Shown piece by piece: positions 109 through 63,724 of a stretch of 63,724 nt of DNA; positions within the stretch are counted from its first letter, which is position 1, and each line of letters begins with the position of its first letter. A program made the position numbers and the translations under genes. The stretch is from Halorubrum sp. GN11_10-6_MGM (GTDB taxonomy: Archaea; Halobacteriota; Halobacteria; Halobacteriales; Haloferacaceae), in NCBI RefSeq assembly GCF_005435165.1, contig NZ_SGUC01000018.1:1-63724 (forward strand), given 5' to 3'. The notes under the pieces are model-generated. The model did not search any database. It was given only the letters and a program-made list of their open reading frames with translations, and had not been told where the DNA came from.

Positions 109-627
109 ATGCTTTGTGAGGTACTGAACCTAGGTGTCGCGTCCTACGTTCTGGCGAGCGTCTCGGACGCTGAGCGACCCAGAAACTTCTACCAGTGGGG
201 AAGCATGGGCGTGACGACAGCCGTCGGACTCGGCCTCGCCATCAGCACCGACGAACCCGTCACCGTCCTGGAAGGCGACGGGTCGTTGCTGATGTCGCTC
301 GGCACGCTCACGACCGTCGCGCGATGCGATCCTGACAACCTGACGGTCGTCGTGTGGGCGAACGACGTCTACGGAACGACGGGCGGGCAGTCGCTTCAGG
401 CTAAGCACACCGATTTCGCCGGGATCGCTGAAAACAGCGGTCTCGACGCAGTCACTGTTCGGGACTCTGAGGCGTTCACAGACGCCTACCGGGAGGCCAC
501 CGAGTCATCGAGCGTCACCGTCATCGTGTGCCACGTCGACCCCATCGATCCCGACGCACGACCACCGTTCGATTTCCCGTACATCGCTCGGCGTGTCCGT
601 GAGTCGCTCTCGACCGACTCATCGTAG
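109..627 (+). CDS. TPP-dependent decarboxylase subunit, ComE/sulfopyruvate decarboxylase beta-like, N-terminally eroded
   Basis: The protein matches the C-terminal thiamine-pyrophosphate domain of sulfopyruvate/phosphonopyruvate decarboxylases. GDGS is at residues 56-59 and the partner Asn of the TPP/Mg motif is near residue 85 (WANDVYG). The GSMG stretch typical of this family is at 31-34. In the family about 20 residues precede the NLGVASY segment. Here an in-frame TAG lies at 100-102 and only a short MLCEVL leader remains, so the start looks deleted or rearranged. The alpha-type partner, if any, would lie left of the window. The substrate cannot be told from sequence. The neighbours (amino-acid oxidase, cyclodeaminase, Liv transporter) suggest amino or sulfonated amino acid catabolism, which is inference. 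Confidence 0.65.
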   Translation: MLCEVLNLGVASYVLASVSDAERPRNFYQWGSMGVTTAVGLGLAISTDEPVTVLEGDGSLLMSLGTLTTVARCDPDNLTVVVWANDVYGTTGGQSLQAKHTDFAGIAENSGLDAVTVRDSEAFTDAYREATESSSVTVIVCHVDPIDPDARPPFDFPYIARRVRESLSTDSS

Positions 628-700
628 CCTGAACGTCGTCCGCCCCGGAATCGTGTCCTAGTGTCACTGCCGACAGTAGCTGGGATGGTCTGTGCGCAGG

Positions 701-1861
701 TCACGCGACGCTCTGTTCGTCGAGTGGTGACCCGTTTTCGAACCGATTGGCCGCGAGCTGGGAGACGTCGACGAGATCCGTCTCGCCGTCGAAAATTAAG
801 TCAGAGACGATCCGCGCGGTCGCCGGTGCGTGTTGGAACCCGTGACCGGAAAACCCGGCAGCGGTCACGAGGCCCGGGAGCGTCTCCTCGAGGATCGGGT
901 GGTTGTCGGGCGTCACTGCGTACAGCCCGGCCCAGCCCCGTTTGATCCGCGTTTCCGGGCCGAAGTACGCCGCGCAGTCGGCGGCACGCTCGACCGCTTC
1001 GGCGGCCCATTCCATCTCTATGTTCCGGTCGTACCCGTCCGGATCGACGGCGTGGTCGTCCTCGGCGAAGTGTCCGCCGACGATCGCGGCGCCGTCGCGC
1101 TCGGGTCGGAAGTACGATCCCGTTTCTATATCGATTGTCAGCGGTACTGACTCGGGAACCTGTTTTGACGGGGCGACGACGGCGATTTGCCGTCGTCGCG
1201 GGGAGATCGGGAGCGTCGTGCCGGCCATTTCAGCGAGTCTGGACGACCACGCGCCGGTCGCATTGACGACGTAATCAACGTCGATCCGCTCCGTGGCTCC
1301 GTTCTCGACGATGTCTACACCAACGACGCGATCGCCGGACCGATGAATATCAGTGACCGTCGTCTTGGGTCGGATCTCGACCCCGAGACCGCGGGCGGCC
1401 TCGGCGTACCCCTGTACGGCGAGGTTCGGGTCGGCGAACCCGTCTGTCGGGTTGTACGTCGCGGCGCGGAAGCGTTCGGTGTTGAGTTCCGGACAGTACT
1501 CGGTCGCCGCTCCCGGGTCGAGGAATTCGGTTTCGGCTCCGAGGTCGCGTTGCATCTGGACGTCGTCGCGGAATCGCTCGGCCACTGATTCGCTTCGCGC
1601 GAGGAACAGGTATCCGCTCGTTCGCAATCCGATATCGACGTCGAATCGATCCTCGAAGGTGTTCCAAACGTGTTTGCTGAACAGTGAGAGTTCGACGTTG
1701 ATCCGAGTGGAGAACTGCGATCGGATCCCGCCGGCTGACCGGGCAGTGCTGCCCCCGCCGAGCGAGCCTTGCTCGCAAAGCGTCACGTCGGCCCCGCGGT
1801 CTGCTAACGCGTGTGCCGCTGCGAGACCGACGATGCCGCCGCCGCACACGAGGACTCTCAT
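701..1861 (-). CDS. FAD-dependent oxidoreductase, DAO family
   Basis: This looks like a flavoprotein amine/amino-acid oxidase of the D-amino acid oxidase/sarcosine oxidase beta type. The first 30 residues form a Rossmann dinucleotide fold (CGGGIVGLAAAHALADRGA, then the acidic strand end TLCE). It is followed by the SAGGIRSQF loop that contacts FAD, and near the C-terminus by AGFSGHGFQHAPAT, the usual second FAD motif. About 386 residues is normal for the family. I chose the ATG at 1861 because the Rossmann strand MRVLVCGG begins there; a start six codons earlier is possible. The gene is divergent from the cyclodeaminase-like gene and may share its pathway. The substrate is unknown. Confidence 0.85.
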   Translation of the reverse strand: MRVLVCGGGIVGLAAAHALADRGADVTLCEQGSLGGGSTARSAGGIRSQFSTRINVELSLFSKHVWNTFEDRFDVDIGLRTSGYLFLARSESVAERFRDDVQMQRDLGAETEFLDPGAATEYCPELNTERFRAATYNPTDGFADPNLAVQGYAEAARGLGVEIRPKTTVTDIHRSGDRVVGVDIVENGATERIDVDYVVNATGAWSSRLAEMAGTTLPISPRRRQIAVVAPSKQVPESVPLTIDIETGSYFRPERDGAAIVGGHFAEDDHAVDPDGYDRNIEMEWAAEAVERAADCAAYFGPETRIKRGWAGLYAVTPDNHPILEETLPGLVTAAGFSGHGFQHAPATARIVSDLIFDGETDLVDVSQLAANRFENGSPLDEQSVA

Positions 1862-2036
1862 AGAGGCGTATCGTGTCACTGGTATAAATTAACACGGGTG
1901 AACGGTTGACACGGCTGTCGGCAGCCGTTCAGGCGTATCGCAGTCGAGCCGCTCTGGACGCTCGTGACCGAAGTACTCGGGATGGCCGTGCTAGAAGCTA
2001 ACAATACCTAAGTCATCACCAGTCGTCGGGGTCGAT

Positions 2037-3020
2037 ATGGTTCGCGTGATTCCTGAGACCGTCGTCGAACGACACCTAGACTTAGCGTCTCTCGTCGAAA
2101 TCGTAGGAGAGGCACTCGTGAAGCAGGCCGTAGACGAAGTCGAGCGGCCTGAACGCCCACATTTCCCAGTGGGCCAAGGACTCGACGGACCGGCGTCGAA
2201 AGGCACCGCTATTGCGATGCCTGCGTACATTCACGGGGCCGAGCGGTACGCGACGAAGCTGGTCGGTGTCCACGAGGGAAACGTCGACCGGGGACTCCCG
2301 ACGATCAACGCGCAGATCGCACTCACTGACGCCCGCACCGGGATTCCGGAGGCGGTCGTGGCGGGGACGATGATCACGAACGCCCGGACGGGGTGTATCG
2401 GCGCACTGGCCGCCCGGGAACTAGCCCCCGATCCGCTGACGCTAGGGGTTATCGGGGCGGGCGCACAGGCACGCTGGCAGACTCGCGCAATTGCGACCGT
2501 CGCCGGACTGGAAGACGTGCGCGTGTACTCCCCGAGCGAGTCCCGGCAAGCGTGCGCGCGTGACCTCTCGGGCGAAGGGATTCCGGCTCGCGCCGTCGAC
2601 GACCCGGCCACAGCAGTGAGAGGCGCCGATGCGGTCGTCACGGCGACTACCGCGACCGAGCCGGTGTTTCCGGCGGCCGAGTTAGGTGATGAGACGCTCG
2701 TCGTCGCCATCGGCGCGTTCACCGAGGAGATGCGAGAACTCGAACAGACGGTGATCGAGGGTGCAGAGACGGTGTTCGCCGACGTCCCGTCTGAGGTGAT
2801 CGAGACCGGAGACTTCCGTGGAACCGACCTCACAGCGTCTGATCTCGTTGAGTTCGGATCGATCCTCGGCGACGGGGATCATGATCTCTCGCCGGGGACT
2901 CGCGCTGTCGTTGCGTCGGTCGGCTCGGCGACGCTGGACGCCGCCGCGACCGATGCGATCTATCGCCGCGCCGCCGAGGCGAACGACGGTACCGACGTCG
3001 AACTATTCCCCGATGAGTGA
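2037..3020 (+). CDS. Ornithine cyclodeaminase / mu-crystallin family protein
   Basis: The 327-residue protein has the family layout: an N-terminal substrate half with the conserved Lys (YATKLVG, K74) and Arg (NARTG, R117), then an NAD(P) Rossmann fold with GAGAQA at residues 140-145. Members deaminate and cyclise ornithine, act as alanine dehydrogenases or reduce cyclic imines, so the reaction is not fixed by sequence. The ATG at 2037 matches the expected N-terminus. The gene lies divergent to the FAD oxidase; an oxidase making an imine and a ketimine-reductase-like partner would be chemically sensible, which is inference. Confidence 0.85.
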   Translation: MVRVIPETVVERHLDLASLVEIVGEALVKQAVDEVERPERPHFPVGQGLDGPASKGTAIAMPAYIHGAERYATKLVGVHEGNVDRGLPTINAQIALTDARTGIPEAVVAGTMITNARTGCIGALAARELAPDPLTLGVIGAGAQARWQTRAIATVAGLEDVRVYSPSESRQACARDLSGEGIPARAVDDPATAVRGADAVVTATTATEPVFPAAELGDETLVVAIGAFTEEMRELEQTVIEGAETVFADVPSEVIETGDFRGTDLTASDLVEFGSILGDGDHDLSPGTRAVVASVGSATLDAAATDAIYRRAAEANDGTDVELFPDE

Positions 3021-3121
3021 CGGCGGAAAGCGGGAGTGCTTAGGGCCGGGCGTAGGAGTTGCCGCGGAGGAATGGGATCCGTGACTCGGCGACCGGACCC
3101 GGTCGGTGCCCATCGTTTCTC

Positions 3122-3445
3122 TCAGTACAGTTCGCCGTGGAGCGGGACAGATTTTTCTGGGGTCACGAGTACCGGATTCCCGTCGTCGCCCGGAACGCCG
3201 AGCGTCAACGCCTCCGAATTAAATCCGGCAATGCGGATCGATCCGAGGTCCGTGACGCAGAGTACCTGTTGACCGACGAGGTCTGCCGCATCGTGATGGT
3301 AACCAAGCTGCGCCGCCGACTGTCGTGACTCCTCGCCGAGGTCAAGCCACAGTTTGACCATCTCTGGCTTGTTCGCCTCAGGAAACGGTTCCGCATCAGA
3401 GACCTCCGCCACTCGCGCCGTCAGGTCGAAGGGAGCTTCCGCCAT
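3122..3445 (-). CDS. csaA: CsaA-like tRNA-binding-domain protein
   Basis: A 107-residue single-domain protein with the OB-fold of the EMAP/tRNA-binding family. The pattern is VAEVSDAEPFPEANKPEM near the N-terminus, GQQVLCVTDL in the middle and LGVPGDDGNPVLVTPEKSV at the end. This is the CsaA arrangement, a small homodimeric protein with chaperone-like and tRNA-binding activity in bacteria. The length is typical. It is convergent with nothing close and sits between the cyclodeaminase and glyoxalase-like genes. Its role in the cluster is unclear. Confidence 0.8.
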   Translation of the reverse strand: MAEAPFDLTARVAEVSDAEPFPEANKPEMVKLWLDLGEESRQSAAQLGYHHDAADLVGQQVLCVTDLGSIRIAGFNSEALTLGVPGDDGNPVLVTPEKSVPLHGELY

Positions 3446-3533
3446 GCTGTGAACATATTATTTGAAGAGGGATTAGAGATACCGGTTGAGCCGGCCGAAA
3501 CGAATGAAGGCCCGTGTTGCGAAGGAGGACTCA

Positions 3534-35061: not shown

Positions 35062-37083
35062 ATGGAAACGTTCAACCATGACGGTTCCGACCGTCCGTGT
35101 ATGCAACTCGAAGACGTCCAGCGCGTGGCGGTACTCGGCGCCGGAAACATGGGGCACGGGATCGCGGAAGTCGCCGCGCTCGCCGGCTACGACGTGTCGC
35201 TGCGCGACATCAACGAGGAGCTCGTCGAGAAGGGGTACGACCAGATCGAGTGGTCGCTCGGCAAGCTCGCGGAGAAGGACCGGATCGGCGACGACGAGGC
35301 GGACGCCGCGCTCGACCGCGTCGAGGCGTTCGTCGACCTCGAAGACGCGCTCGACGGCGCCGACGTCGTCGTCGAGGTCGTCCCCGAGAAGATGGCGATC
35401 AAGAAGGACGTGTACGACGAAGTCGTCGAGTACGCCCCCGAGGAGGCCGTCTTCGTCACCAACACCTCCAGCCTCTCCATCACCGAGCTGTCCGAGGTCA
35501 CCGACCGCCCCGAGCGCTTCTGCGGCATGCACTTCTTCAACCCGCCGGTGCGGATGGACCTCGTCGAGGTCATCTCCGGGGAGCACACGAGCGAGGAGAC
35601 GCTCGAACTGATCGAGGGGCTCGCGGAGTCGATGGGGAAGACCCCCGTTCGGGTGCGAAAGGACAGCCCGGGCTTCATCGTCAACCGCATCCTCGTCCCG
35701 CTGATGAACGAGGCGGCGTGGATCGTCGAGTCCGGCGACGCGACGATGGAGGCGGTCGACTCCACCACGAAGTTCGACATGGGCCTCCCGATGGGTTCGT
35801 TCGAGCTCGCGGACCAGGTCGGCATCGACGTGGGCTACCACGTACTGGAGTACATGCACGAGGTCCTCGGCGACGCCTACCGCCCCTGCCCGCTGCTCGG
35901 CGAGAAGGTCGAGGCGGAGGAGCTCGGCAAGAAGACCGGGAAGGGCTTCTACGACTACGAGGACGGCGAGGGCGCCCAGATCCCGACCGACGCGGTCGAC
36001 GCCGACGTCCGACGCCGGCTGCTCGCGGTGATGGCCAACGAGACGGCCGGGCTGATCGGCAACGACGTGGCCGACGCCGACGACGTCGACGAGGCCGTCA
36101 AGCTCGGCGCGGGCTTCCCGGACGGTCCGGCCAAGCTCGCGGACGAGGAGGGGCTCGACGCCCTCGTCGAGACGCTCGACGACCTCGCCGACGAGACCGG
36201 CGAGGAACGCTACGAGGCGACCGACTACCTGCGCGAGGCCGCCGAGGCGGGCGGGTTCCGCGGCGCCGGCGACGCCGATGGCGACGGGAGCGACACGGCC
36301 GACTACGAGGTGCTCAACGTCGCGGTCGAGGACCGCGTCGGGCACGTCGAGATCGACCGCCCGCACCGGATGAACACGATCAGCGGCGAGGTCCTCGACG
36401 AGCTCGCCGACGCGGTCGACCGGTTCGACGCCGACGACGAGGTGCGGGCGATCCTGCTGTCCGGCGCCGGCGACCGCGCCTTCTCCGCGGGCGCGGACGT
36501 CCAGAGCATGGCCGCGGGCGGCGCCGACCCGATCCACGCCGTCGAGCTGTCGCGGCAGGGCCAGCAGACGTTCGGCAAGCTGGAGTCGTCGGACAAACCC
36601 GTCATCGCCGCCATCGACGGCTACTGCCTCGGCGGCGGGATGGAGCTCGCGACCGCGGCGGACATGCGTATCGCCTCCGAGCGCTCCGAGCTCGGCCAGC
36701 CCGAGCTCGACCTCGGCCTGCTCCCGGGGTGGGGCGGCACGCAGCGGCTCGCACGGATCGTCGGCGAGGGGCGCGCGAAGGAGATCATCCTCACCGCCGA
36801 CCGCTACGACGCCGAGACGATGGCCGACTACGACTTCGTCAACGAGGTCGTCCCGGACGACGAGCTCGACGAGCGGGCGCGGGAGCTGGCCGAGCAGCTC
36901 GCCGGCGGCCCGCCGATCGCACAGAAGTACACGAAGCGCGCGATCCACGCCGGCCGGACCGACAACGAGGCCGGGCTGGAGGTCGAGGCGATGGGCTTCG
37001 GCCACGTGATGAACACCGACGACCTCATGGAGGGGATCACGGCGTTCATGGGCGACGGCGAGCCCGAGTTCGAAGGGAAGTAG
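35062..37083 (+). CDS. Fused 3-hydroxyacyl-CoA dehydrogenase / enoyl-CoA hydratase
   Basis: 673 residues with the dehydrogenase first: NAD motif VAVLGAGNMGHGIAEVA, catalytic-region HFFNPPVRMDLVEVI and C-terminal domain DSPGFIVNRILVPLMNEA; then from about residue 410 a crotonase domain with AFSAGADVQSM, IDGYCLGGGMELATAADMRI and GLLPGWGGTQRL (oxyanion hole and catalytic Glu). This order, opposite to bacterial FadB, is the archaeal type known from crotonyl-CoA hydratase/3-hydroxybutyryl-CoA dehydrogenase. It works in beta-oxidation or acyl-CoA assimilation. ATG at 35062 follows a TATA-like AATAAACTTA by 27 bases; ATG 35101 is an alternative. Confidence 0.92.
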   Translation: METFNHDGSDRPCMQLEDVQRVAVLGAGNMGHGIAEVAALAGYDVSLRDINEELVEKGYDQIEWSLGKLAEKDRIGDDEADAALDRVEAFVDLEDALDGADVVVEVVPEKMAIKKDVYDEVVEYAPEEAVFVTNTSSLSITELSEVTDRPERFCGMHFFNPPVRMDLVEVISGEHTSEETLELIEGLAESMGKTPVRVRKDSPGFIVNRILVPLMNEAAWIVESGDATMEAVDSTTKFDMGLPMGSFELADQVGIDVGYHVLEYMHEVLGDAYRPCPLLGEKVEAEELGKKTGKGFYDYEDGEGAQIPTDAVDADVRRRLLAVMANETAGLIGNDVADADDVDEAVKLGAGFPDGPAKLADEEGLDALVETLDDLADETGEERYEATDYLREAAEAGGFRGAGDADGDGSDTADYEVLNVAVEDRVGHVEIDRPHRMNTISGEVLDELADAVDRFDADDEVRAILLSGAGDRAFSAGADVQSMAAGGADPIHAVELSRQGQQTFGKLESSDKPVIAAIDGYCLGGGMELATAADMRIASERSELGQPELDLGLLPGWGGTQRLARIVGEGRAKEIILTADRYDAETMADYDFVNEVVPDDELDERARELAEQLAGGPPIAQKYTKRAIHAGRTDNEAGLEVEAMGFGHVMNTDDLMEGITAFMGDGEPEFEGK

Positions 37084-37560
37084 GGCGCGAGCGGGTCGGC
37101 CGTGGCGGTGGAGACAGTCATGTCTCCGACTGTGTATTTTAGCATCCACCACCGGGTAAAGCCGGAGAAATCTTGAGCGGTGGGAGTTTCACGTTCGCAG
37201 TCACGGGGACCCAATCTGCGGGAATCCATTCAACCCAGTCGTCGTGGTCAGTAGTTGACTGATGTTAACGAAGCGAATTTCTCGTTCGCACATTAGAGAT
37301 CATTAACTTCTGAACGACCTCGTTACAAGTGGCAGGCTGGCCGCCCCCGAGGGTCGTTCGGAATCTGCCCCGCTCCGACCTGACCCTACCAATGTCCCAT
37401 ATTTATCATAGTTTGATGTATATATTAGAAACGCGCGCTGCGCTACTGTTGACAGATGTGTCTTCTTATGAGTAGATTCGTCCTGCGTCTGTAGCCGTAG
37501 ATGTTCTCTTTGACTCTCATAACCAAATTATTAATATTCGACACATACAAATATTGAACG
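37084..37560. other. 477-bp AT-rich intergenic region
   Basis: GC content drops abruptly near 37140 and stays low to about 40600, marking imported DNA. No convincing gene. A minus-strand stretch (about 37140-37250) reads DDWVEWIPADWVPVTANVKL in one frame but has no start and may be a gene remnant. The right end holds the promoter of the propeller gene. Confidence 0.55.
37524..37541 (+). promoter_or_regulatory. TATA-like box of the propeller-kinase gene
   Basis: AAATTATTAATATTC, centred about 27 bases before the ATG at 37561, consistent with leaderless transcription. Confidence 0.55.
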
Positions 37561-38394
37561 ATGAGTGGTCAACTGTTCTGGAAGTATCCAACTTCGAGTA
37601 AGATACAGTCGTCGCCTACAGTAGTAAATGGGACACTCTTCGTTGGCAGTACTGATGGCACCGTCTACGCACTCGAAGCCGAGACAGGACGCGAACGCTG
37701 GCAATTTACAACTGATGACACGGTTGTCTCGTCGCCGACAGTGGTTGATAAGACTGTCTTCGTTGGAAGTGACGACGGCAACGTATACGCGCTGAATGCG
37801 GCCTCGGGTGAGAGACAGTGGCACTTCGAGACAGGAGAGTCGGTCCAATCTTCGCCAACAGTAGCGGATCAGACTGTCTTCGTCAAAAGTAACGACGGCA
37901 TTGTGTACGCGCTGAACGCGACCTCGGGTGAGAGCCAGTGGCGCTACAAAACCACGGGATCTTCCCCTCAGTCACCGGTTGTTGTAGACGGAACACTCTA
38001 TATTGGCACCGGAACGACTGGTTCCTCCCACTCTACCGGTAGCGTGACCGCGCTTGATATTAGTACTGGACAGGTACAGTGGAGATTCGAGCCGTTCGAG
38101 TTCCCGTGTGGTCACTCGTCGCTAACGGTGTCCAATTATACACTCTTTGTTGGTACGTGGATTCTTCACGCCGACAAATCTAAGCAGGGATACGTCCACG
38201 CTCTGGAACCCGATACAGGAGATGAACGGTGGCGGGTGGGATTGAACGGCTGGGTCGAATCGACTACCGTACCCACGGTTGCGAAAAATACCCTTTTTAC
38301 GGTAACCTATTCAGAGAAGTTACACGCTATTGACATCAGCACTGGGAAAAATGGGATGCTGACGGCGTGTCAAGATTCCAATCTCCCACAGTAG
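37561..38394 (+). CDS. PQQ-like beta-propeller (first part of a split propeller-kinase gene)
   Basis: 277 residues made of blade repeats of about 40 residues of the form SPTVVxGTLFVGSxDGxVYALxAxTGxxxW, the PQQ/quinoprotein-dehydrogenase-like propeller. Six blades are visible here. In blade six the frame is lost at an A5 run (38347-38351); one extra A would give GKKWDADGVSRFQSPTVVDG and continue into the next frame, which has two more blades and a kinase. With repair the propeller has eight blades, the usual number, so this is probably the N-terminal part of one protein. There is no signal peptide, so it is cytoplasmic. Low GC suggests transfer. Confidence 0.85.
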   Translation: MSGQLFWKYPTSSKIQSSPTVVNGTLFVGSTDGTVYALEAETGRERWQFTTDDTVVSSPTVVDKTVFVGSDDGNVYALNAASGERQWHFETGESVQSSPTVADQTVFVKSNDGIVYALNATSGESQWRYKTTGSSPQSPVVVDGTLYIGTGTTGSSHSTGSVTALDISTGQVQWRFEPFEFPCGHSSLTVSNYTLFVGTWILHADKSKQGYVHALEPDTGDERWRVGLNGWVESTTVPTVAKNTLFTVTYSEKLHAIDISTGKNGMLTACQDSNLPQ

Positions 38395-39746
38395 TGGATG
38401 GGACGCTTTTTACCGGTGATCAGGATGGTAACGTCTATGCGATTGACATTACATCCGGAGAGAAACATGTTCTGTTCCGCTTGGGAGACAGAACTGTGTC
38501 TTCACCAACAGTAGTGAATGGTGTTCTTTATATTGGATGTGATGACGGTAACGTTTATGCTCTGGATATAGAGACAAAGGCATCAAGTGATGACTCTCGA
38601 GTATTATTAGGTACGCTGGGTCATCATAAGAATCGTGTAACGACAGATCCAGCACGGATATCAAGCCACCCACATAATTCTCCTAACCAAAGAGATCCCG
38701 GTAAACCATCGGACGAGGACACAGACAGTCCAGTTGACTCGACGTACCTTTCGTCAGATCACACGACCGTTGCTATTGAAACTGGAGACACATCTCGTGA
38801 GCCAGATCTGGCTGCTGTCTCAAGCCCTCCTCGGAGAGCGTTAACAGACGACGAGATTGAGGCGGGAGAACCGATTGGGAGTGGTGGTCAAGGAATTGTA
38901 CATCAGGCAAAAATTCTGGACGATTGTCCACCCAATCAGGTTGCTCTAAAAGAACCACAACAACAGAACCGTACTCTCAACAAATCGGTTGTTGAGTCAT
39001 TCCTCGAGGAAGCTGAAACGTGGGAGATGCTCGACAACCAGGAACGTCAGAAGCCCCGGTGGAATACCTCTGAGCATATTGTGGGAATCGTCGACACCGG
39101 TGACCAGTTGCCGTGGATTGCAATGGAATACATGGACGGGGGTAGTCTTGGGGATAGACTGGCCGACCATCCAGACGGATTCCCGATAGACGAAGCACTA
39201 TGGATAGGGGAGTGTATCTGTCGCGGAGTCGAACTCGCGCATAACAACGGAATTGCACACTTAGACATCAAACCCGAGAATATCTTGTTCCGTGAAACCA
39301 AGGACAGGAAGTGGGACGTTCCAAAACTCGCGGATTGGGGGGGATCACGGAAACTCGCTGAACAAACCGGAACGATGGAAGCGTTGTCCGTGGAGTACGC
39401 TGCTCCCGAACAGTTTGAACAACAAAAATTTGGGGACCCAGACATGCTCACAGACATCTATCAAGTCGGTGTCCTACTGTACACGGTCTTCACAGGAGAG
39501 CCGCCGCACACAGGATCTCAGCTCGCGGTAAGGTGCGCTGTCGTCAACGATACAAAACCAAAAGCACCCAGTGACTGTAGATCCGAACTGCCGGCTGAGT
39601 TGGATCGGATTGTTCTCAAAGCAATGGCTCAAAAAAAATCGGAGCGATATAGAACAATTAGCATACTTGTCAACGAGCTCCAATCACTTCGTACCGGTGA
39701 TGGAGTCACAAAGCGATCAGAAAAGTCAGAGCCGGAATCAGGATGA
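38367..39746 (+). CDS. Ser/Thr protein kinase with two PQQ blades (second part of the split gene)
   Basis: 459 residues. Residues 1-75 are two propeller blades, then a Ser/Asp-rich linker, then from about 165 a Hanks-type kinase: P-loop GSGGQGIVHQ, Lys in VALKEP, catalytic HLDIKPENILF (HLD in place of HRD), DWG in place of DFG (LADWGGS) and YAAPEQF as APE. The key Lys, Asp, Asn and Asp are kept, so it is likely active. The ATG at 38367 lies 28 bases inside the previous frame and could allow separate translation, but fusion is more likely original. The propeller would be the sensor or substrate-binding part. Confidence 0.88.
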   Translation: MSRFQSPTVVDGTLFTGDQDGNVYAIDITSGEKHVLFRLGDRTVSSPTVVNGVLYIGCDDGNVYALDIETKASSDDSRVLLGTLGHHKNRVTTDPARISSHPHNSPNQRDPGKPSDEDTDSPVDSTYLSSDHTTVAIETGDTSREPDLAAVSSPPRRALTDDEIEAGEPIGSGGQGIVHQAKILDDCPPNQVALKEPQQQNRTLNKSVVESFLEEAETWEMLDNQERQKPRWNTSEHIVGIVDTGDQLPWIAMEYMDGGSLGDRLADHPDGFPIDEALWIGECICRGVELAHNNGIAHLDIKPENILFRETKDRKWDVPKLADWGGSRKLAEQTGTMEALSVEYAAPEQFEQQKFGDPDMLTDIYQVGVLLYTVFTGEPPHTGSQLAVRCAVVNDTKPKAPSDCRSELPAELDRIVLKAMAQKKSERYRTISILVNELQSLRTGDGVTKRSEKSEPESG

Positions 39747-39854
39747 TGAGGAACGAGATACAGTGAACCAGAAGTCCCCGTCGCTTTCGAAAACAAATTC
39801 TGTCCTAGGTGTAAGAGTATTCTGAATCCGATAATTACAAGCGAATCACGATAG
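39747..39854 (+). other. In-frame zinc-ribbon-like remnant after the kinase stop
   Basis: After the kinase stop and a second TGA, the same frame reads about 34 codons including AFENKFCPRCKSILNP before a TAG at 39852-39854. The CPRC knuckle resembles half of a zinc ribbon. It may be the eroded end of the kinase or of another gene. It could be chance. Confidence 0.3.
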
Positions 39855-39891
39855 TTGACGGAGCGATTATATTGCTCTTTGCTGCGGCTAT

Positions 39892-40587
39892 TCGGTCGCG
39901 TTAAGTTTGGCGTGAATTGTGGTAGACGGCGAAGGCTTCGAGCCAGTTTTGAGCTGTCTCTAGCGCGACATTGCTGAAACTATTCGCAAACGATGACGTT
40001 CGTCGTTCTATTTCCCAAAAGACACGTTCGATGGCATTCCGATTTCCATGTCGAATGATTTGAAATCGATAACCATCTTCAGCGAGAACTGATCCGAGAT
40101 AGTCTGCGTCATCGACGAGAAATTCCACGTTATTGAGTTGATAGCGGCGGTGTAGCTCGGTCAGAAACCATCGCGTGATCTGTTTATTTGCGGTCGGATA
40201 GAGGCTCACGTGAAGGATCTCGTTCGTCTGTGGATCAACCGCGCCGTACAGCCAGAACTTCTGGCCATGGAGGCGGATCATCTTTTCGTCAACCGCAAGC
40301 TGATCCTCGGAGACGGTCGAGATCGGCTGTAGATCGGCTTTATGAACCCAGTTATGAATAGCGACGTGACTCCGATCTATCCCAAAGCTTTCGAGAAATT
40401 TACTTATCTCACGTAGTGACATACCGACCAAGTGACAGCGAATCCCTACTTCAATCGCCCATCGCGGCGTTCGATCTCGCTCCACAAACGACAAGTCGAT
40501 CCACGCGATACGTTCGCTGAGGCGTTCGATTTCGGCCATAGACACTCTGAAGTCGAGCGCCTCATTCTCTAACTTAACGCGACCGAC
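39892..40587 (-). mobile_element. IS6-type haloarchaeal insertion sequence, apparently complete
   Basis: About 696 bp bounded by perfect 16-bp inverted repeats: TCGGTCGCGTTAAGTT at 39892-39907 and its inverse at 40572-40587. It carries one transposase gene whose stop codon lies within the left repeat. No clear 8-bp target duplication is seen (GCGGCTAT left, CTATTCTG right), so the copy may have come by recombination or be old. Confidence 0.9.
39901..40539 (-). CDS. IS6-family transposase
   Basis: About 212 residues with the DDE catalytic core of haloarchaeal IS6 elements: HNWVHKADLQP before the core, first Asp in LAVDEKMIRLHG, second in FLVDDADYLG and Glu in NAIERVFWEIERRTSSF. The frame is intact, so it may be active. 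I chose the ATG at 40539 (MAEIERLSERIAWIDL); two codons earlier is another ATG. It is of a different subgroup from the decayed copy near 9.5 kb, since many residues differ. Confidence 0.93.
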   Translation of the reverse strand: MAEIERLSERIAWIDLSFVERDRTPRWAIEVGIRCHLVGMSLREISKFLESFGIDRSHVAIHNWVHKADLQPISTVSEDQLAVDEKMIRLHGQKFWLYGAVDPQTNEILHVSLYPTANKQITRWFLTELHRRYQLNNVEFLVDDADYLGSVLAEDGYRFQIIRHGNRNAIERVFWEIERRTSSFANSFSNVALETAQNWLEAFAVYHNSRQT

Positions 40588-40963
40588 TATTCTGGGTCAA
40601 CTATTTAAGATCTCCTTCCTTCCCCCTACCGAGATAAGTGATTAATCGCAGAGTGGTAACAACGACTGCCGAAGCCCAGCCGCGAGAGCCCGTGCGTCTC
40701 GTGTCGCGCCTCGTTCAGTCACTCTGTTTACTCGCTCCTTCGCTGAGGTGCTTACATCGGTGACCTTCGCCCTCGCAACTGCCCCCTCGTGCCATGCCTC
40801 ACAACAGCACCGCACCTCACGCCTCCCCAGCTCCGTCGCTGCGAGTTAAAATCGCCAGTGACTCTATCGCGTGAGTGATCCTCGGCGCTACGTGCCGGCT
40901 GTCAGAGCGATCGAAGGTCTCTCGCTGCTCACATCACCGCACACTGAGACGTCGCTTTGCGGT
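40588..40963. other. 376-bp intergenic region with dispersed repeat copy C
   Basis: Between the insertion sequence and the asd gene. Most is copy C of the dispersed repeat. The right end (40870-40963) is the 3' flank of asd with no further gene. GC content rises back to core level by 40.95 kb. Confidence 0.65.
40661..40850 (+). repeat. Dispersed GC-rich intergenic repeat, copy C
   Basis: Diverged match to the left two-thirds of copy A: CTGCCGAAGCCCAG, then CGAGAGCCCGTGCG, TTCGCCCTCGCAACTGCC, and CACCTCACGCCTCCCCAGC near 40815. It shares no open frame with the other copies. A TATA-like TGATTAATC lies about 17 bases before the start. Confidence 0.8.
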
Positions 40964-42010
40964 CTATACGTACCCTTCCTCGACGAGCAGCTCGCCGTTG
41001 AGCAGCGAAGCACCGGCCGCGCCGCGGATCGTGTTGTGCGCGAGGCAGTTGTACTTCGCACCGGTGTCGGTCGTCTGGACACCGCCGGCGACGATCCCCA
41101 TCCCGTCCGCGTACGTGCGGTCGAGGCGGGGCTGCGGGCGCTCGGGCTCGTCGTCGCCGAACACCTTGATGAGCTGGTCGGGCGAGCTGGGGAGGTCGCC
41201 GGCGCCCTCGAACGAGCGCATCGCCTCGCGGAGGTCCGCGGCCGAGGGGTCGTCGGCGAACTCGGCGAAGACGTTCTCCAAGTGGCCGTCGAGCGTCGGG
41301 ATGCGGTTACAAGAGGCGGCCACGTCGGCGTCGTGGAGCGCGACCTCGGCGCCGTCGAACTCGCCGAGCAGCTTGCGCGACTCCGTCTCCATCTTCTCCT
41401 CCTCGCCGCCGATGTGCGGGATGGCGTTGTCGATGATCTCCATCGAGGTGACGCCGGAGTAGCCGGCGCCGGAGACGGCCTGAAGCGTCGAGACGCTGAC
41501 GCGCTCCAGTCCGAACTCGTCGATCGCCGCGAGCGTCGGCACCATCGTGATCGTCGAGCAGTTCGGGTTCTTCACGAGGGCGCCGTCCCAGCCGCGCTCG
41601 TCGCGCTGGACCTCGATCAGGTCGAGGTGGTCGGGGTTGATCTCCGGGATGGTGAGCGGCACGTCTTCGGCCATGCGGTCGTTCGAGGAGTTCGACGAGA
41701 CGACGTACCCCTCTTCGAGGAACGACGGCTCGACCTCGGCGGCGACGCCCGAGGGGAGCGAGGAGAACAGGAGGTCGACGTCGGCGTCGGCGACGCCCGC
41801 GGGCGTCGTCTCCGCGACCTCCATCTCGGCGACGTCGTCCGGGATCGGGGTGTCGACGCGCCACTTGGCCGCCTCGCGGTAGGTCTTCCCCGCGCTCTCC
41901 GCGCTCGCCGTGACAGCGGCGAGGTCGAAGGTCGGGTGATCGTCGAGCAGCTGGATGAATCGCTGGCCCACGGCCCCCGTCGCGCCGAGGATACCGACTC
42001 GTACAGACAT
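40964..42010 (-). CDS. asd: Aspartate-semialdehyde dehydrogenase
   Basis: 348 residues with NADP motif VGILGATGAVGQRF at the N-terminus, catalytic Cys in VKNPNCSTITMVPTL, SGAGYSGVTSMEIIDN and the His near DGHLENVFAEF. It is the archaeal/fungal-type Asd, which reduces aspartyl phosphate to the semialdehyde for threonine, methionine and lysine synthesis. The ATG at 42010 gives the conserved N-terminus; the open frame extends 73 codons upstream but is Arg-rich there. It is divergent from the NhaC-like gene. Confidence 0.94.
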   Translation of the reverse strand: MSVRVGILGATGAVGQRFIQLLDDHPTFDLAAVTASAESAGKTYREAAKWRVDTPIPDDVAEMEVAETTPAGVADADVDLLFSSLPSGVAAEVEPSFLEEGYVVSSNSSNDRMAEDVPLTIPEINPDHLDLIEVQRDERGWDGALVKNPNCSTITMVPTLAAIDEFGLERVSVSTLQAVSGAGYSGVTSMEIIDNAIPHIGGEEEKMETESRKLLGEFDGAEVALHDADVAASCNRIPTLDGHLENVFAEFADDPSAADLREAMRSFEGAGDLPSSPDQLIKVFGDDEPERPQPRLDRTYADGMGIVAGGVQTTDTGAKYNCLAHNTIRGAAGASLLNGELLVEEGYV

Positions 42011-58119: not shown

Positions 58120-59634
58120 TCACATGAAATCGGTCAGCCCGGCCTGATCGTCGTCTGCTTCGTCGTCGGAACCGTCTTCCGCGGTCGCGTCGTCCGCCGA
58201 GTCGCGCCCGTTGCTCTCGCCGGCGGTCGGTCCGGAGTCATCGGGGGCGGCCTCATCGGTCGCGGCGTCGGCCGCGGTCGCGTCGTCCGCGTCCTCCCCG
58301 CGGTCGGCACCGTCGAACGCGAAGGCGCCCTCGGCGTGTTCCTCGATCAGCTCCTCGCGGCGGGCTTGCGCGTCCTCGACGATCGACGTGACCTTGTTCG
58401 TCGACTCGCCGGAGCCGGTGACGAAGGCGACGCCCGCCTCGTCGAGGTCGTACGCCGCCGCCATCGCGACGGTCAGGTCGCGGGGCTTACAGTGGTGGGT
58501 GACGGCCTCGAGGAACGGTAACACCTCCCGTCTCGCGGTCGCGACGCTACACCCGCTCGCGGCCGCGATCTTGCCGACGACCTCGTCGGCGGTCGCGTCC
58601 GACGACGACCAGAACTGCGGGCGACCGTAGCGCGTCCAGCCACCCTTCTCGCCGTCGCGGGCGGCCGCGACGCCCGCGGCCGCGTTGTCGGTCGCGTAGC
58701 GCCAGTAGGAGTAGTTCTGGGTGGCGCGCACGCGGCCGAGCCACACGTCGGCGTTGGCGAGGAAGTCGTACGCGCGGACCGCCTCGGTCGGCTCGTACAC
58801 GTCGAGGACGTTGTTCTCGATCCAGCGCGTCAGGTCGTCGGGCGTCTCGTCGACGGCGTACGACGACCGCAACGCCTCCTCGGCGGACTCCTCTTTCAAC
58901 ACGGCGTCGAGGAACGGAAACAGCCCCAGCGCCTTGTCGCGGTCGCCGGTAACGACGTCGTCGACCGTGATCGAGTCGCGCCCCTGGGTCGCGGCTTGGA
59001 GGTCGTTTATCGCGCCGCGGAGATCGCCGCGGTTCCCTTCCGCGATCTGCTGGAGGGCGTCGGAGTCGAACTCGATCCCCTCCTTGCGGCAGACGTCGCG
59101 GAGGACGGGGACGATGGAGCGCGCGGAGACGTCGCGGAACTCGATCTCCCGCGTCGCGTTCCGGAGTCCGCGCGACATGTCGTAGTAGTCGTTGGCGATG
59201 AGGACGATGGGCTGACCGGACTCCTTGACCAGCTTCGTGATCGCCGAGGCGCCGCCGCGGTCGTAGTTCCCGTGGATGTTGTCGGCCTCGTCGACGATGA
59301 CCAGCTGGCGCGAGGCGGTATCGCCGCCGCCCGCGCCGCCGCCGGCCGCGCTCCCGCCGAGGGTGGCGTTGCGCGCCGCACGGCCCGCGGAGCGCTCGAT
59401 GACGTCGGCGGTGCGCTGGTCGGAGGCGTTCAGCTCGACCGTCTCCCAGCCCATGTCGTTCGCGAGCGCGTGCGCCGCGCTCGTCTTCCCGACGCCCGGG
59501 CTGCCGTGGAGGACGACCGCCTCGTGGTGGTCGTCCCACGAGCGGGCCCACTCCGCGAACGCGTCGCGGGCCTTGTCGTTGCCGCGGACCTCCGAGAGCG
59601 TGCTCGGGCGGTACTTCTCCGTCCAATCGGCCAT
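58120..59634 (-). CDS. rfcL: Replication factor C large subunit
   Basis: 504 residues of clamp loader large subunit: MADWTEKYRPSTLSEVRGND, Walker A HGSPGVGKTSAAHAL, Walker B LVIVDEADNIHG and sensor region IVLIANDYYDMSRGLR. The C-terminal 90 residues are a low-complexity acidic tail ending QAGLTDFM, which resembles a PIP box for PCNA binding. With RfcS it loads PCNA at primed DNA. It is single-copy core chromosome content in haloarchaea, useful for typing. It converges with the kinase gene. Confidence 0.96.
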   Translation of the reverse strand: MADWTEKYRPSTLSEVRGNDKARDAFAEWARSWDDHHEAVVLHGSPGVGKTSAAHALANDMGWETVELNASDQRTADVIERSAGRAARNATLGGSAAGGGAGGGDTASRQLVIVDEADNIHGNYDRGGASAITKLVKESGQPIVLIANDYYDMSRGLRNATREIEFRDVSARSIVPVLRDVCRKEGIEFDSDALQQIAEGNRGDLRGAINDLQAATQGRDSITVDDVVTGDRDKALGLFPFLDAVLKEESAEEALRSSYAVDETPDDLTRWIENNVLDVYEPTEAVRAYDFLANADVWLGRVRATQNYSYWRYATDNAAAGVAAARDGEKGGWTRYGRPQFWSSSDATADEVVGKIAAASGCSVATARREVLPFLEAVTHHCKPRDLTVAMAAAYDLDEAGVAFVTGSGESTNKVTSIVEDAQARREELIEEHAEGAFAFDGADRGEDADDATAADAATDEAAPDDSGPTAGESNGRDSADDATAEDGSDDEADDDQAGLTDFM

Positions 59635-59676: not shown

Positions 59677-60051
59677 TCAGTCGTTCGCCCGGTCGCGGAG
59701 GTCGAGACGCGGGGTGAACCCCTCGTACGCGCCGTCGCTGGACACGATGGGGTCGTCCCCCGACGCGACGAGGTGGAGCGCGTCGAACGGCGTGAAGCCG
59801 TGTTCGTCGACGTACGTCGCGGCCGCGACCACGCCGTCGACGTCGCCCCGGACCTCCACGAGCGCGGCCGCGTTCGCGACGGTCCGCTCCGCGCTTCGGT
59901 CCTCACGGTACGCGACGAGCAGGAGTTCGACGAGCGTGAGCCGGGAGGTCCAGAGGTCGTCCCGGTGATCGCGATACACCGACTCGGCCGCGTCTCCGAG
60001 CCAGTCGTCGTCCTTTATCAGCGCGAGAAGGAAATCGGTCTCCGCGTACAT
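59677..60051 (-). CDS. vapC: VapC-type PIN-domain toxin
   Basis: 124 residues of PIN fold with the acidic quartet: Asp in MYAETDFLLAL, Glu in LTLVELLLVA, Asp in FTPFDALHLV and Asp in IVSSDGAYEGF. Such proteins are Mg-dependent RNases, toxins when unbound. The ATG directly follows the stop of the antitoxin-like gene (TGA-ATG), typical of the pair. Confidence 0.88.
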   Translation of the reverse strand: MYAETDFLLALIKDDDWLGDAAESVYRDHRDDLWTSRLTLVELLLVAYREDRSAERTVANAAALVEVRGDVDGVVAAATYVDEHGFTPFDALHLVASGDDPIVSSDGAYEGFTPRLDLRDRAND

Positions 60052-60282
60052 TCAGCGCCCCGCCTCGTCGATCGCGGCGTCCCGCGCACCGTCGCGCAGC
60101 TCCTCGGCGGTCTTCTCGACGTCCTCGAACTCGTCTCTGAGCGCTTCGAGCGGGTCCTCCGCGACCGGAACCAGCTTGATACCGTCTCGGAGTCGGACGA
60201 CGCGATAGCGGTCCCCGTATCGCTCTCGGATGTCCTTCGGGAGGGTCAGGCGTCCCCGGTCGTCGAGGGTCGTTTCGCCCAT
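60052..60282 (-). CDS. vapB: AbrB/SpoVT-type antitoxin VapB
   Basis: 76 residues with a swapped-hairpin AbrB domain MGETTLDDRGRLTLPKDIRE and an acidic C-terminal tail (ALRDEFEDVEKTAEEL) that probably covers the toxin site. It would bind its own promoter and neutralise VapC. The ATG at 60282 lies 24 bases after TATA-like CTTATATTTT (60301-60310), so the transcript is likely leaderless. Confidence 0.88.
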   Translation of the reverse strand: MGETTLDDRGRLTLPKDIRERYGDRYRVVRLRDGIKLVPVAEDPLEALRDEFEDVEKTAEELRDGARDAAIDEAGR

Positions 60283-60347
60283 ATAGCGAACTACGGTGAG
60301 AAAATATAAGAAAATACCCCATAGAGCTGATCGCACCCATCATCCTG

Positions 60348-60434
60348 CTATTCGGAGTTCACGATCTCCTCCTCGGTGAGTCCGTACAGCTCGTAGACGA
60401 CCTCGTCGATAGGCTGCTCCGTCCGCTCGATCAG
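60348..60434 (-). pseudogene. C-terminal stub of a type IIG restriction-modification protein
   Basis: Minus-strand frame reads IERTEQPIDEVVYELYGLTEEEIVNSE then stop, nearly the same as the end of the protein coded at 62293-63576 (LIDEIVYELYGLIDEEIEVV). Only about 28 codons remain; the rest is lost where AT-richer DNA of the nuclease genes begins. It is a remnant of a gene cut by rearrangement. Confidence 0.75.
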
Positions 60435-60467
60435 AGTAGGATAATGTGCTGATAATTGGGGTCCACA

Positions 60468-60477
60468 GATTAAAATG
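60468..60477 (+). promoter_or_regulatory. TATA-like box of the NucS-like gene
   Basis: GATTAAAATG, about 27 bases before the ATG at 60499, consistent with that start. Confidence 0.5.
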
Positions 60478-60498
60478 TGTATTAAACAATCTGCGAGT

Positions 60499-61599
60499 AT
60501 GCCAATTGATCTGGGTCTCTGGCGAATAGCGGATAACGACGACTTTGAGCGTGTTTCGTCAACGAAACTCGACAGCGAAGACCGGCTTGAAGAATTCCTT
60601 CTCCAAGATCCGAACGTCCTCGGACAACCGTTGTTAGTCATCGATCGGCAAATAACGACATCAAGCGGGAAGCGTCTCGATATTCTGGCGATGGACGCGG
60701 ACGGAGATCTCCATGTCGTCGAGCTCAAGCGAGACCGGACACCGAGGGACGTAACTGCGCAGACAATTGATTACGCCTCTTGGGTTCGAAATCTCACGTA
60801 CGACGAAATCAAAGAACTCTACGAAGACTCGGACGAGCATGAGGACTCATTCGAAGCAGGATTTGATGAGAAATTCCGGCCGAATCATGACGACTCCTCT
60901 GAGGGGCCCGACGAGGTAAACGAAGAACATACCCTGACGATTGTGTCCTCTGAACTTGACGCCTCGACAGAGAGAATTATCGAGTACCTCTCTGAGGAAT
61001 TTGATGTGCCGATCAACGCAGTTCGTTTCAATTACTACCAGGAAGACGAGCGAGAATACATTGCCCGGACATGGTTGAATGACCCCTATCAGTCGGAGGA
61101 TGTGGACGAAGAGAGTACCAGAGAAGACTGGAGTGGCGTGGATTTCTATGCGAATTTCGAACAAACAAAATACCGGAATTGGGACGACGCCCGCGAATAC
61201 GGATTTATTGCGGGAGGTCACGGAGAATGGTATCACCGAACAATGGGGACCGCAACGGAAGGGTCTCGTCTGTTCGTCTACCACCCACAAAAAGGGTATA
61301 TCGGAGTCGGAACTGTGACCCAAGAAAAGACTCCGGCTAACGAATATAAGGTCGAAATTGACGATAAAACAGTGCCTCTCACAGAGGCTCCGCTTGAAGG
61401 TGACTTAAGCCGGGACGCAGAGGATCCTGACCTCCGTGAGTATGTCATAGGAATTGCCTGGGAAGATACTAGAGACATAGGGAATGCCGTCTGGGAAGAA
61501 GGGATGTACGCAAACCAGAATACAGTGACTAGGCTACGTGACCAGCACACGCTTGATCAGCTTCGAGAGGCTTTCGACGTTCCAGAAGTCAAGGATTAA
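60499..61599 (+). CDS. NucS/DUF91-type nuclease with PUA/EVE-like C-terminal domain
   Basis: 366 residues. Residues 1-100 match the PD-(D/E)XK core of NucS/DUF91: LEEFLLQDPNVLGQPLLVI, Asp in KRLDILAMD, ExK in LHVVELKRDR and Gln in VTAQTIDY. A middle acidic and helical region follows. Residues 220-330 (EYGFIAGGHGEWY; SRLFVYHPQKGYIGVGTVT) resemble a PUA/EVE/ASCH-like fold that reads modified bases. This makes a modification-sensing nuclease plausible, as inference. I chose the ATG at 60499. Low GC shows import. The next gene starts five bases after the stop. Confidence 0.78.
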   Translation: MPIDLGLWRIADNDDFERVSSTKLDSEDRLEEFLLQDPNVLGQPLLVIDRQITTSSGKRLDILAMDADGDLHVVELKRDRTPRDVTAQTIDYASWVRNLTYDEIKELYEDSDEHEDSFEAGFDEKFRPNHDDSSEGPDEVNEEHTLTIVSSELDASTERIIEYLSEEFDVPINAVRFNYYQEDEREYIARTWLNDPYQSEDVDEESTREDWSGVDFYANFEQTKYRNWDDAREYGFIAGGHGEWYHRTMGTATEGSRLFVYHPQKGYIGVGTVTQEKTPANEYKVEIDDKTVPLTEAPLEGDLSRDAEDPDLREYVIGIAWEDTRDIGNAVWEEGMYANQNTVTRLRDQHTLDQLREAFDVPEVKD

Positions 61600-61604
61600 C
61601 ACTG

Positions 61605-62237
61605 ATGGATCAGTCTGATTTCGACAGACCGCGAAATGATCCGCGTGCCCAGCGTGTTATACGGTCAATCGAGCGGTTTGCTACCGAATTTGATCGACGT
61701 GTCCCGAGAGAACACGCAAACGAGGTCCTCTACGACTCAGTCCCACTCGAAGGTGGGATAATCCGCCAAGGACCGGAGCGGTTTATCGAGGAACACCTCA
61801 TTCGTGACGTTGCTGATGCTCTCGGCTACCAGTATCGGCCACAACCGAAGGGATTTGAGGGACTCGGAGATGACACTCCAGATTTTACCATTACAAATGT
61901 CGATGTGACAGTGGTCGGTGAACTCAAATCCCCGAACGGAATTAAGAAGGCCCAGACAGAATCAATTCACTACCTTGATGAGGCTGAGAATCGCCCCCTT
62001 GTCGGTATTGCCTCTGATGGGTGGACGTGGATCAAGTACACTGCTCGAAAAGGTGAGAAACCAACTCCCAGCGACCATTGTTCTCTTCGTCAGGTTATCC
62101 GTGATATTGCGCGTGAGCAGTCTGTAGACCAGTCTCCGCGTCGCGATCGGCCAGAACTACGGAAGCGTTGCTACGACTTTGTGTCTTCATTTGGTGCCGA
62201 AGAGATCGGCAAGTCTGTTGAATCTGAGCAGGACTGA
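61605..62237 (+). CDS. PD-(D/E)XK-type nuclease, restriction-enzyme-like
   Basis: 210 residues. The core is DDTPDFTITNVDVTVVGELKSPNG, with Asp and ExK of the PD-(D/E)XK fold near residues 90-107, preceded by the helix FIEEHLIRDVADALGYQYRP typical of type I R-subunit or type IIG nuclease domains. There is no methylase or helicase in the chain. It lies five bases behind the NucS-like gene and faces the type IIG fragment tail-to-tail, so it may be part of one defence cluster. Confidence 0.75.
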   Translation: MDQSDFDRPRNDPRAQRVIRSIERFATEFDRRVPREHANEVLYDSVPLEGGIIRQGPERFIEEHLIRDVADALGYQYRPQPKGFEGLGDDTPDFTITNVDVTVVGELKSPNGIKKAQTESIHYLDEAENRPLVGIASDGWTWIKYTARKGEKPTPSDHCSLRQVIRDIAREQSVDQSPRRDRPELRKRCYDFVSSFGAEEIGKSVESEQD

Positions 62238-62292
62238 AAACGCTACTTTGAGACCGACAAATCGCTGAGCTGATTGAGACTCTTTTCGGGGT

Positions 62293-63576
62293 TTATTTTC
62301 CTACTGCCTCCTCAACGACCTCGATCTCCTCGTCGATGAGCCCGTACAGCTCGTAGACGATCTCGTCGATCAGGTCGTCGGTCTTTGCGATCTTCGCGTC
62401 GAGCTCCTCGGCGCGCTCTTTCGTCTCTAGGTAGTTCTCCAAGTCGTCGGCCACGTCGTCGACGTCGGGAACCTCGATCGCCTTCAGCCGGTCGATCAGC
62501 GAGTTCGTCTTCGTCGCCGTCTCGCGGAAGTTCGCGAAGCCGCCCGCCTCGTCGACGGCGACCGGAACGAAGTGCTCGATCAGGTCCGCCTCCGTCTCCG
62601 TGTAGCCCCACTGGTCCGTTTCGTGCGCGTCCTCGTCGTCCGGCTTGTAGCGGGCGGTGGCCTCGACGAGGACCGTATTGGGGGACTCGCGATCCAACGA
62701 TACATCACCAACCCGTAGGTTTGATCGGTGTTCATTGGTCTGTTCGAGCATCGATTCGTCTGCGTTCTTAGGGGGTTGAACAAATCCGATATTGGTGAGC
62801 CCCTGTTCAGCATCGTAGTTACCAAGATGGTCTCTCAAATTGAGATTCAGTTCTACGAGTTCGTTATTTTTGTCAATCAGGTAGTCACAAGCAGTTTCCA
62901 GACAACGGTGGGCAGCCGATGCTTGGATAGCCCCACCTTCCATTAGATAAGATGAAATCAACTCTTGATTTGAAGATCTACCAGATAGTTTCTTTCTCAG
63001 TTGTCCATTATCAAGATCCGAATGCTTGCCTTCCAGATCTACATTGGGGAGCGGAAATTTCCTTACTGACTGAGGGTACACGTGTGAGTAATCTCCTTGA
63101 AGACTTCCTGTTGCGAATCTGTTGGCATAATAAAAGTTGTCAACTGAAGAATTGACAATTGCGAGAATCGCTTTGAGGGAGTAGTTCGTTTCTAATTTGT
63201 CGAATCCTTCGAAATCGGTCCGGAGATCGGTTCCTTCTACGTTATCATACATTGTACAAAGAACGGTGAGATGATCTGTGTACATACCCCTATCATCAAA
63301 TGCGGCTAGAATTGAATCGTCGTCAGCTGAAACATATCGCACTGCGATCTTTTCAGATTCAAACAGTTTTGAATGACGGGGTCCGTAGATCTCGCTAGGC
63401 TGGTAGTCAAGGTAGATTTCAGGCCATTCAATATGGTATCGGCTGATATTCTTTCCCTCAAAGAATTTCTTGTAGCCTTCTTTATATTCCTCAGATAAGA
63501 AGTGTGACTTTCCAAACCCACCCTTCTCTTTACTCGAAATCTGGGCACCATAATTCACATAACATATATTACCCAT
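62293..63576 (-). pseudogene. Truncated type IIG restriction-modification protein, specificity half
   Basis: 427 residues beginning MGNICYVNYGAQISSKEKGG, then FFEGKNISRYHIEWPEIYLDYQ, LAIVNSSVDNFYYANRF and DYSHVYPQSVRKFPLP: the TaqI_C/Eco57I-type DNA-recognition domain. A long helical tail ends IDEIVYELYGLIDEEIEVVE. The N-terminal nuclease and methylase domains expected upstream are missing; the frame meets a TAA about 14 codons before the ATG, near 63617, where unrelated DNA begins. As it stands it could bind DNA but not methylate or cut it. The 3' portion is GC-richer than the 5' part. Confidence 0.8.
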
Positions 63577-63724
63577 CCTGATACAGCTTTCATCTATGGT
63601 ATGTGTTTAGCCCGAGATCGATTTCGGTACTCTCTCGTAGGAGCCGTTTGAGAGGTATCGTAGATCGATGCAACAGGCGAGCAAGTGGATTCCTGAGGGA
63701 TGGTCTCCGATCAGGAGACCATCC
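63577..63724. other. Foreign DNA end at the truncated gene
   Basis: This 148-bp stretch interrupts the type IIG gene. It has no gene of its own. It ends in a perfect hairpin and may be the end of a mobile element that continues right of the window. Confidence 0.5.
63698..63724. repeat. Perfect 10-bp hairpin at the window end
   Basis: GGATGGTCTC at 63698-63707 pairs with GAGACCATCC at 63715-63724 across a 7-base loop. It could be a terminator or the end hairpin of an IS200/IS605-like element; the window ends too early to decide. Confidence 0.85.

Follow-up and report, generated by a model that had tools for sequence, protein, structure and literature searches.

Two nuclease genes that stand side by side among pieces of restriction-modification genes may form one system, or may have been collected independently in the same place, and this question is raised by a low-GC stretch at 60.3-63.7 kb of the DNA analysed here (GC 0.51-0.55 vs ~0.70 around it). 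The window, meaning the whole stretch of 63,724 bases, is an entire contig from a haloarchaeal draft assembly in 200 contigs, which its closest named relatives place in Halorubrum. A preliminary description had noted in this stretch of lowered GC content two PD-(D/E)XK genes lying head to tail, with pieces of type IIG genes on both flanks, all of which is borne out, and it had proposed that the two nucleases could act as partners. The features of the locus are as follows:

60348..60432, minus strand: orphan type IIG 3' tail, 85 bp, ending at the stop codon (78-88% identity to the IIG 3' ends of other Halorubrum loci)
60470..60475, plus strand: possible TATA box, TTAAAA, read from the sequence
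60499..61599 (open reading frame from 60475), plus strand: gene 1, a NucS-like PD-(D/E)XK nuclease with a C-terminal, weakly EVE/PUA-like domain, PDC-S11 family (PADLOC PDLC04916)
60577..60792, plus strand: NucS-type nuclease domain of gene 1, catalytic D69, E83 and K85 (Pfam NucS_C, residues 35-106)
61120..61596, plus strand: C-terminal domain of gene 1, weak EVE/PUA-like similarity (Priestia relative matching PF01878; hhalign vs EVE)
61605..62237, plus strand: gene 2, a small PD-(D/E)XK nuclease of 210 aa, haloarchaeal family (invariant motif in 12 homologues)
62293..63597, minus strand: type IIG C-terminal part, with a TaqI_C specificity domain (Pfam, E 4e-14) and a conserved tail, truncated
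63599..63724, unstranded: end of a repeated element, probably an insertion sequence (~126 bp, 94-100% identity in six other contigs)

Both nuclease genes are on the plus strand and are separated by a gap of five bases (61600-61604; open reading frames 60475-61599 and 61605-62237), and the two type IIG fragments that flank them are both on the minus strand. With so short a gap, the two genes are probably co-transcribed in this strain and might act jointly. The true start of gene 1 is probably 60499 rather than 60475, since most of its aligned relatives begin at the equivalent of the former position; TTAAAA lies ~26 nt upstream of this likely start, a spacing as for leaderless haloarchaeal transcripts, and may represent a promoter element.

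Gene 2 is convergent to the facing IIG tail, with a 55-bp gap between them. Residues 192-415 of the truncated IIG protein align with residues 1150-1390 of a 1402-aa IIG enzyme, and its gene is cut at ~63598 by the repeated element, copies of which are mostly found at contig ends and which closes the contig here. On the other side, the orphan tail duplicates the IIG 3' end and is a direct repeat of 62322-62392 (80% identity), with homology to IIG 3' ends that begins at -99 relative to the IIG stop. The wreckage of type IIG genes recognised earlier at this site consists of a C-terminal part cut by the repeated element and an 85-bp orphan tail. In addition, a PIN-domain gene and an AbrB/MazE-like gene, likely a toxin-antitoxin pair, occupy 59677-60336 between rfcL (58120-59634) and the orphan tail, and a second low-GC stretch of the contig was found at 37000-41000 (GC 0.49-0.54).

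The two nuclease families

The preliminary description knew of no named system with exactly this pair, which is not quite right: gene 1 matches over its full length the PADLOC profile of PDC-S11 (PDLC04916, E 2.8e-135, residues 9-369), a single-gene phage defence candidate, from which no difference was found. For this family, the paper examined gives no more than co-occurrence statistics, and no functional test was found in it. The N-terminal region matches NucS_C at residues 35-106 (E 1.1e-4, slightly under the Pfam cutoff) and aligns with the structures 5gke and 2vld, and D69, E83 and K85 are identical in 23/23 relatives from haloarchaea, other Halobacteriota and bacteria. An intact nuclease active site is thus carried on the same chain as a C-terminal region of weak EVE/PUA likeness, in agreement with the NucS/DUF91-type nuclease and separate C-terminal domain originally recognised in this protein. 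Gene 1 shares with EndoMS/NucS a nuclease domain with catalytic D, E and K residues; in contrast to those enzymes, it has no NucS N-terminal domain, and its nuclease domain is N-terminal and followed by another domain. NucS itself was ruled out as an identity, as the score against the curated NucS profile (34.6 bits) is below the cutoff of 216.

The nature of the C-terminal domain (approximately residues 216-374) is less sharply defined. It has no Pfam match in gene 1 itself, and PDB sequence searches yielded nothing useful for it, but a full-length bacterial relative from Priestia matches EVE (PF01878) with an E value of 0.0027, under the gathering score. Moreover, the C-terminal profile was compared by hhalign with 17 haloarchaeal EVE domains, using three successively broader alignments. 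The scores were 30.0, 29.3 and 28.1, where shuffled controls reached at most 20.7, 20.5 and 27.6, respectively, and the alignment takes in the core around G-S-R-L-F-V-Y ... Y-I-G-V-G-T-V. The reader domain proposed earlier for this protein thus has weak support, the likeness to EVE being suggestive. Structure prediction of gene 1 and gene 2 from shallow alignments gave a mean pLDDT of 38-39 and was unusable.

On these features, it is plausible that gene 1 encodes a modification-dependent nuclease. If its C-terminal domain is EVE-like, a reader and a nuclease would be combined on one chain as in the EVE-HNH enzymes such as VcaM4I (PMC7897488), from which gene 1 differs in having PD-(D/E)XK instead of HNH, in placing the nuclease first, and in an EVE similarity that is sub-threshold. 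A survey of EVE domains (PMC7641849) names neither DUF91 nor NucS.

Homologues of gene 1 were found in haloarchaea, other Halobacteriota, Actinomycetota, Deinococcus, Bacillota and Klebsiella plasmids, and those in other haloarchaeal families are 71-74% identical to it over the full length. Their neighbours include type III restriction-modification genes (L062), a type I restriction subunit (L061), BREX genes in Halomontanus, and type I restriction-modification genes in Kocuria and Deinococcus. Such neighbourhoods fit a defence role for gene 1, as had been supposed from the sequence of the locus. No relative of gene 1 or gene 2 was confirmed in viral contigs.

Gene 2, the second and compact PD-(D/E)XK gene of the preliminary description, has the motif P92-D93 ... 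E106-x-K108, which is invariant in 12/12 homologues. Among the Halorubrum copies dN/dS is ~0.04-0.07, though with high dS, and gene 2 therefore looks like a maintained gene. No named family was found for it in the profile libraries searched (Pfam and PADLOC among them), and PDB sequence searches gave no useful match. It shows 27-31% identity to the N-terminal part of type IIG enzymes encoded by Halorubrum viruses, and its distant matches include frames of ~1,120-1,310 aa; these similarities point to a distant relationship with the nuclease region that type IIG enzymes carry at their N terminus. Gene 2 is not a type IIG enzyme itself, being a protein of 210 aa with the nuclease motif only and lacking the methyltransferase and target-recognition parts. 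A similar case is HVO_A0006 of Haloferax volcanii (PMC4389544), an orphan IIG-like nuclease that is also free-standing, resembles only the IIG N-terminal nuclease region and lies beside transposition genes; by description, gene 2 is set apart from it by a family that has its own conserved standalone members.

In several genera (L165, L166, L167, L169, L097 and L101), the reading frame of a ~240-aa relative begins 4-8 bp ahead of the end of a full-length IIG gene, which suggests a conserved IIG-plus-nuclease operon in haloarchaea. Assignment of gene 2 to this IIG-coupled type was rejected, as it is convergent to the IIG tail across the 55-bp gap instead of overlapping it on the same strand.

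These relatives raise the alternative that gene 2 is a separate nuclease subunit of type IIG enzymes and not a partner of gene 1. Such a role would agree with the overlap of the 240-aa relatives with IIG stops, with the position of gene 2 next to IIG tails in 4/4 other Halorubrum loci read, and with the change in detected methylation upon deletion of HVO_A0006 (PMC4389544). However, gene 2 is not co-translated with the facing IIG gene, which in the window is truncated, and the gene 2 loci read outside Halorubrum have no IIG tail nearby, several copies there being preceded by short genes, of which one has a weak match to the Mrr_N winged helix. A partnership with type IIG enzymes is hence considered unlikely, though it deserves to be kept in mind.

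Repeated type IIG 3' ends as the setting

Copies of gene 2 at four further Halorubrum loci (L071, L072, L081 and L082; L098 duplicates L081 and was counted once) likewise point towards a IIG 3' end. An orphan tail is present on the other side of gene 2 in three of them, and L081 has one tail only. DNA similarity between the window and each of the four loci starts at approximately the start codon of gene 2, the upstream DNA being different, and continues unbroken through the facing IIG tail in 3/4, an IS5-type transposase gene lying between in L071.

The arrangement is a common one. A search for the IIG tail in 52 Halorubrum genomes gave 83 tallied matches, of which 52 fall in frames shorter than 900 aa, and a control search with the IIG 5' end gave 41, 13 of them in short frames; short orphan tails were therefore more frequent than orphan 5' ends (52/83 vs 13/41, Fisher p 0.002). 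As tail pairs at one locus are non-independent, the counts and p are indicative. Twenty pairs of tails lie 0.3-4 kb apart, all 20 on the same strand, and no comparable pairs were found for the 5' end. Between the tails are ShosT and ShosA (ShosA E 5e-57; L100), PD-(D/E)XK nucleases, a weakly PycTM-like protein, and proteins of no recognised kind. Tail pairs also occur outside Halorubrum (L180 and L181), and some of the IIG-tail loci, the window among them, adjoin rfcL.

Several arrangements at these loci are recorded as observations in their own right. In Halorubrum genome G209, positions 8392-12478 of L100 carry on one strand a IIG gene, a 420-aa unknown, an orphan tail, ShosT and ShosA, and a further orphan tail, a row that looks like stacked modules. 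A 226-aa protein with hydrophobic stretches begins 2 bp after the IIG stop in L093 (4234-4911), L095 (9021-9701) and L099 (6532-7212), and is weakly PycTM-like (E 0.0012 for the L093 copy, which was scanned). In L172, a BrxHII/DrmD-like SNF2 helicase gene (496-3447) overlaps the IIG 3' end. Tyrosine recombinase genes adjoin IIG genes in L072 (11715-13001) and L101 (9499-10749), and the former has an N-terminal IIG part on one side and a C-terminal part on the other. Inverted repeats as a switch for the IIG gene were rejected, with a single inverted pair, of 490 bp, in L101 and no such pair in L072.

Bracketing of cargo by direct repeats of a gene 3' end, with recombinase genes nearby, might be taken to mean that IIG 3' ends are site-specific attachment sites at which a tyrosine recombinase, like those in L072 and L101, inserts cargo. 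On the other hand, the point at which the orphan tails break off upstream differs from tail to tail, between -86 and -482 counted from the IIG stop, and no recombinase match was found among the cargo proteins scanned. Such scatter of the breakpoints speaks for homologous or illegitimate recombination accompanying IIG turnover rather than for integration at a single fixed site, so that this alternative, already weakened, has a low probability. Slightly less probable again is that the locus is decaying wreckage in which neither gene is used: the IIG gene is broken by the repeated element and tail fragments remain, but neither nuclease reading frame is shortened, both active sites are intact, the dN/dS of gene 2 is low, and gene 1 keeps its full-length identity to homologues in other haloarchaeal families.

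The loci resemble the homeocassettes and islands of Halorubrum ezzemoulense (PMC11078007), in which alternative gene sets occupy the same chromosomal places. They differ from these in their boundary, here the type IIG 3' end repeated as short orphan tails, of which no description was found in the literature searched.

Distribution of the two genes and reading of the locus

Close homologues of the two genes were found in disjoint sets of genomes. Among 292 haloarchaeal genomes, gene 1 has close homologues in nine and gene 2 in ten besides their own genome, and none is shared; the expected number of shared genomes is 0.31 by chance (9 and 10 of 291) and 9-10 if the association were obligate. Among the 52 Halorubrum genomes, gene 1 is present only in that of the window and gene 2 in four. 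As the survey covered ~300 haloarchaeal species and 52 Halorubrum genomes with one genome per species, it bears on pairs older than close strains, and a young pair common to such strains would escape it. Gene 2 is absent from all gene 1 loci read, whose hosts range from Halomontanus to Klebsiella, the six plasmid loci included; one Halomontanus plasmid has a gene 1 homologue together with a partial relative of gene 2, and the two are not adjacent.

From this distribution, the two genes are not a conserved two-gene system, and the partnership first proposed for them, for which no co-occurrence was found beyond this genome, is abandoned here. A two-nuclease modification-dependent restriction system, in which gene 1 would read a base and nick and gene 2 would cut with it, is hardly credible despite the same-strand, head-to-tail arrangement with a five-base gap and the two intact active sites, as the combination was found nowhere else and what lies upstream of gene 2 is different at other Halorubrum loci.

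It is considered likely instead that two independent defence-type genes were collected by IIG turnover in a slot beside a type IIG 3' end. As suggested by sequence and context, gene 1 would most likely work alone: its EVE-like C-terminal domain would examine bases, probably modified ones in viral DNA, and the NucS-like domain at its N terminus would cut. Gene 2 would be a small PD-(D/E)XK nuclease with a distant relationship to the IIG nuclease region and to the ~240-aa nuclease that follows many haloarchaeal IIG genes. The slot itself may form as new IIG genes arrive with accessory genes and older copies remain as short 3' tails.

A broader reading can be offered tentatively, with somewhat less than even confidence: the 3' ends of haloarchaeal IIG genes may serve as a docking place for interchangeable defence genes, genes 1 and 2 being such cargo. 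Successive IIG-plus-accessory modules would replace one another and leave tails in the same orientation, and the accessories may act as IIG-linked back-up effectors. If this is true, a row of tails, such as IIG, cargo, tail, ShosTA and tail, would record past modules, and the accessories translated straight after IIG would be a nuclease, a membrane protein and a BrxHII/DrmD-like SNF2 helicase.

The repeated IIG 3' end provides a simple handle for finding further defence genes in archaea. For the gene 1 family, which is broad, the layout suggests a NucS-type modification-dependent nuclease, which, if true, would represent a new use of the NucS fold.
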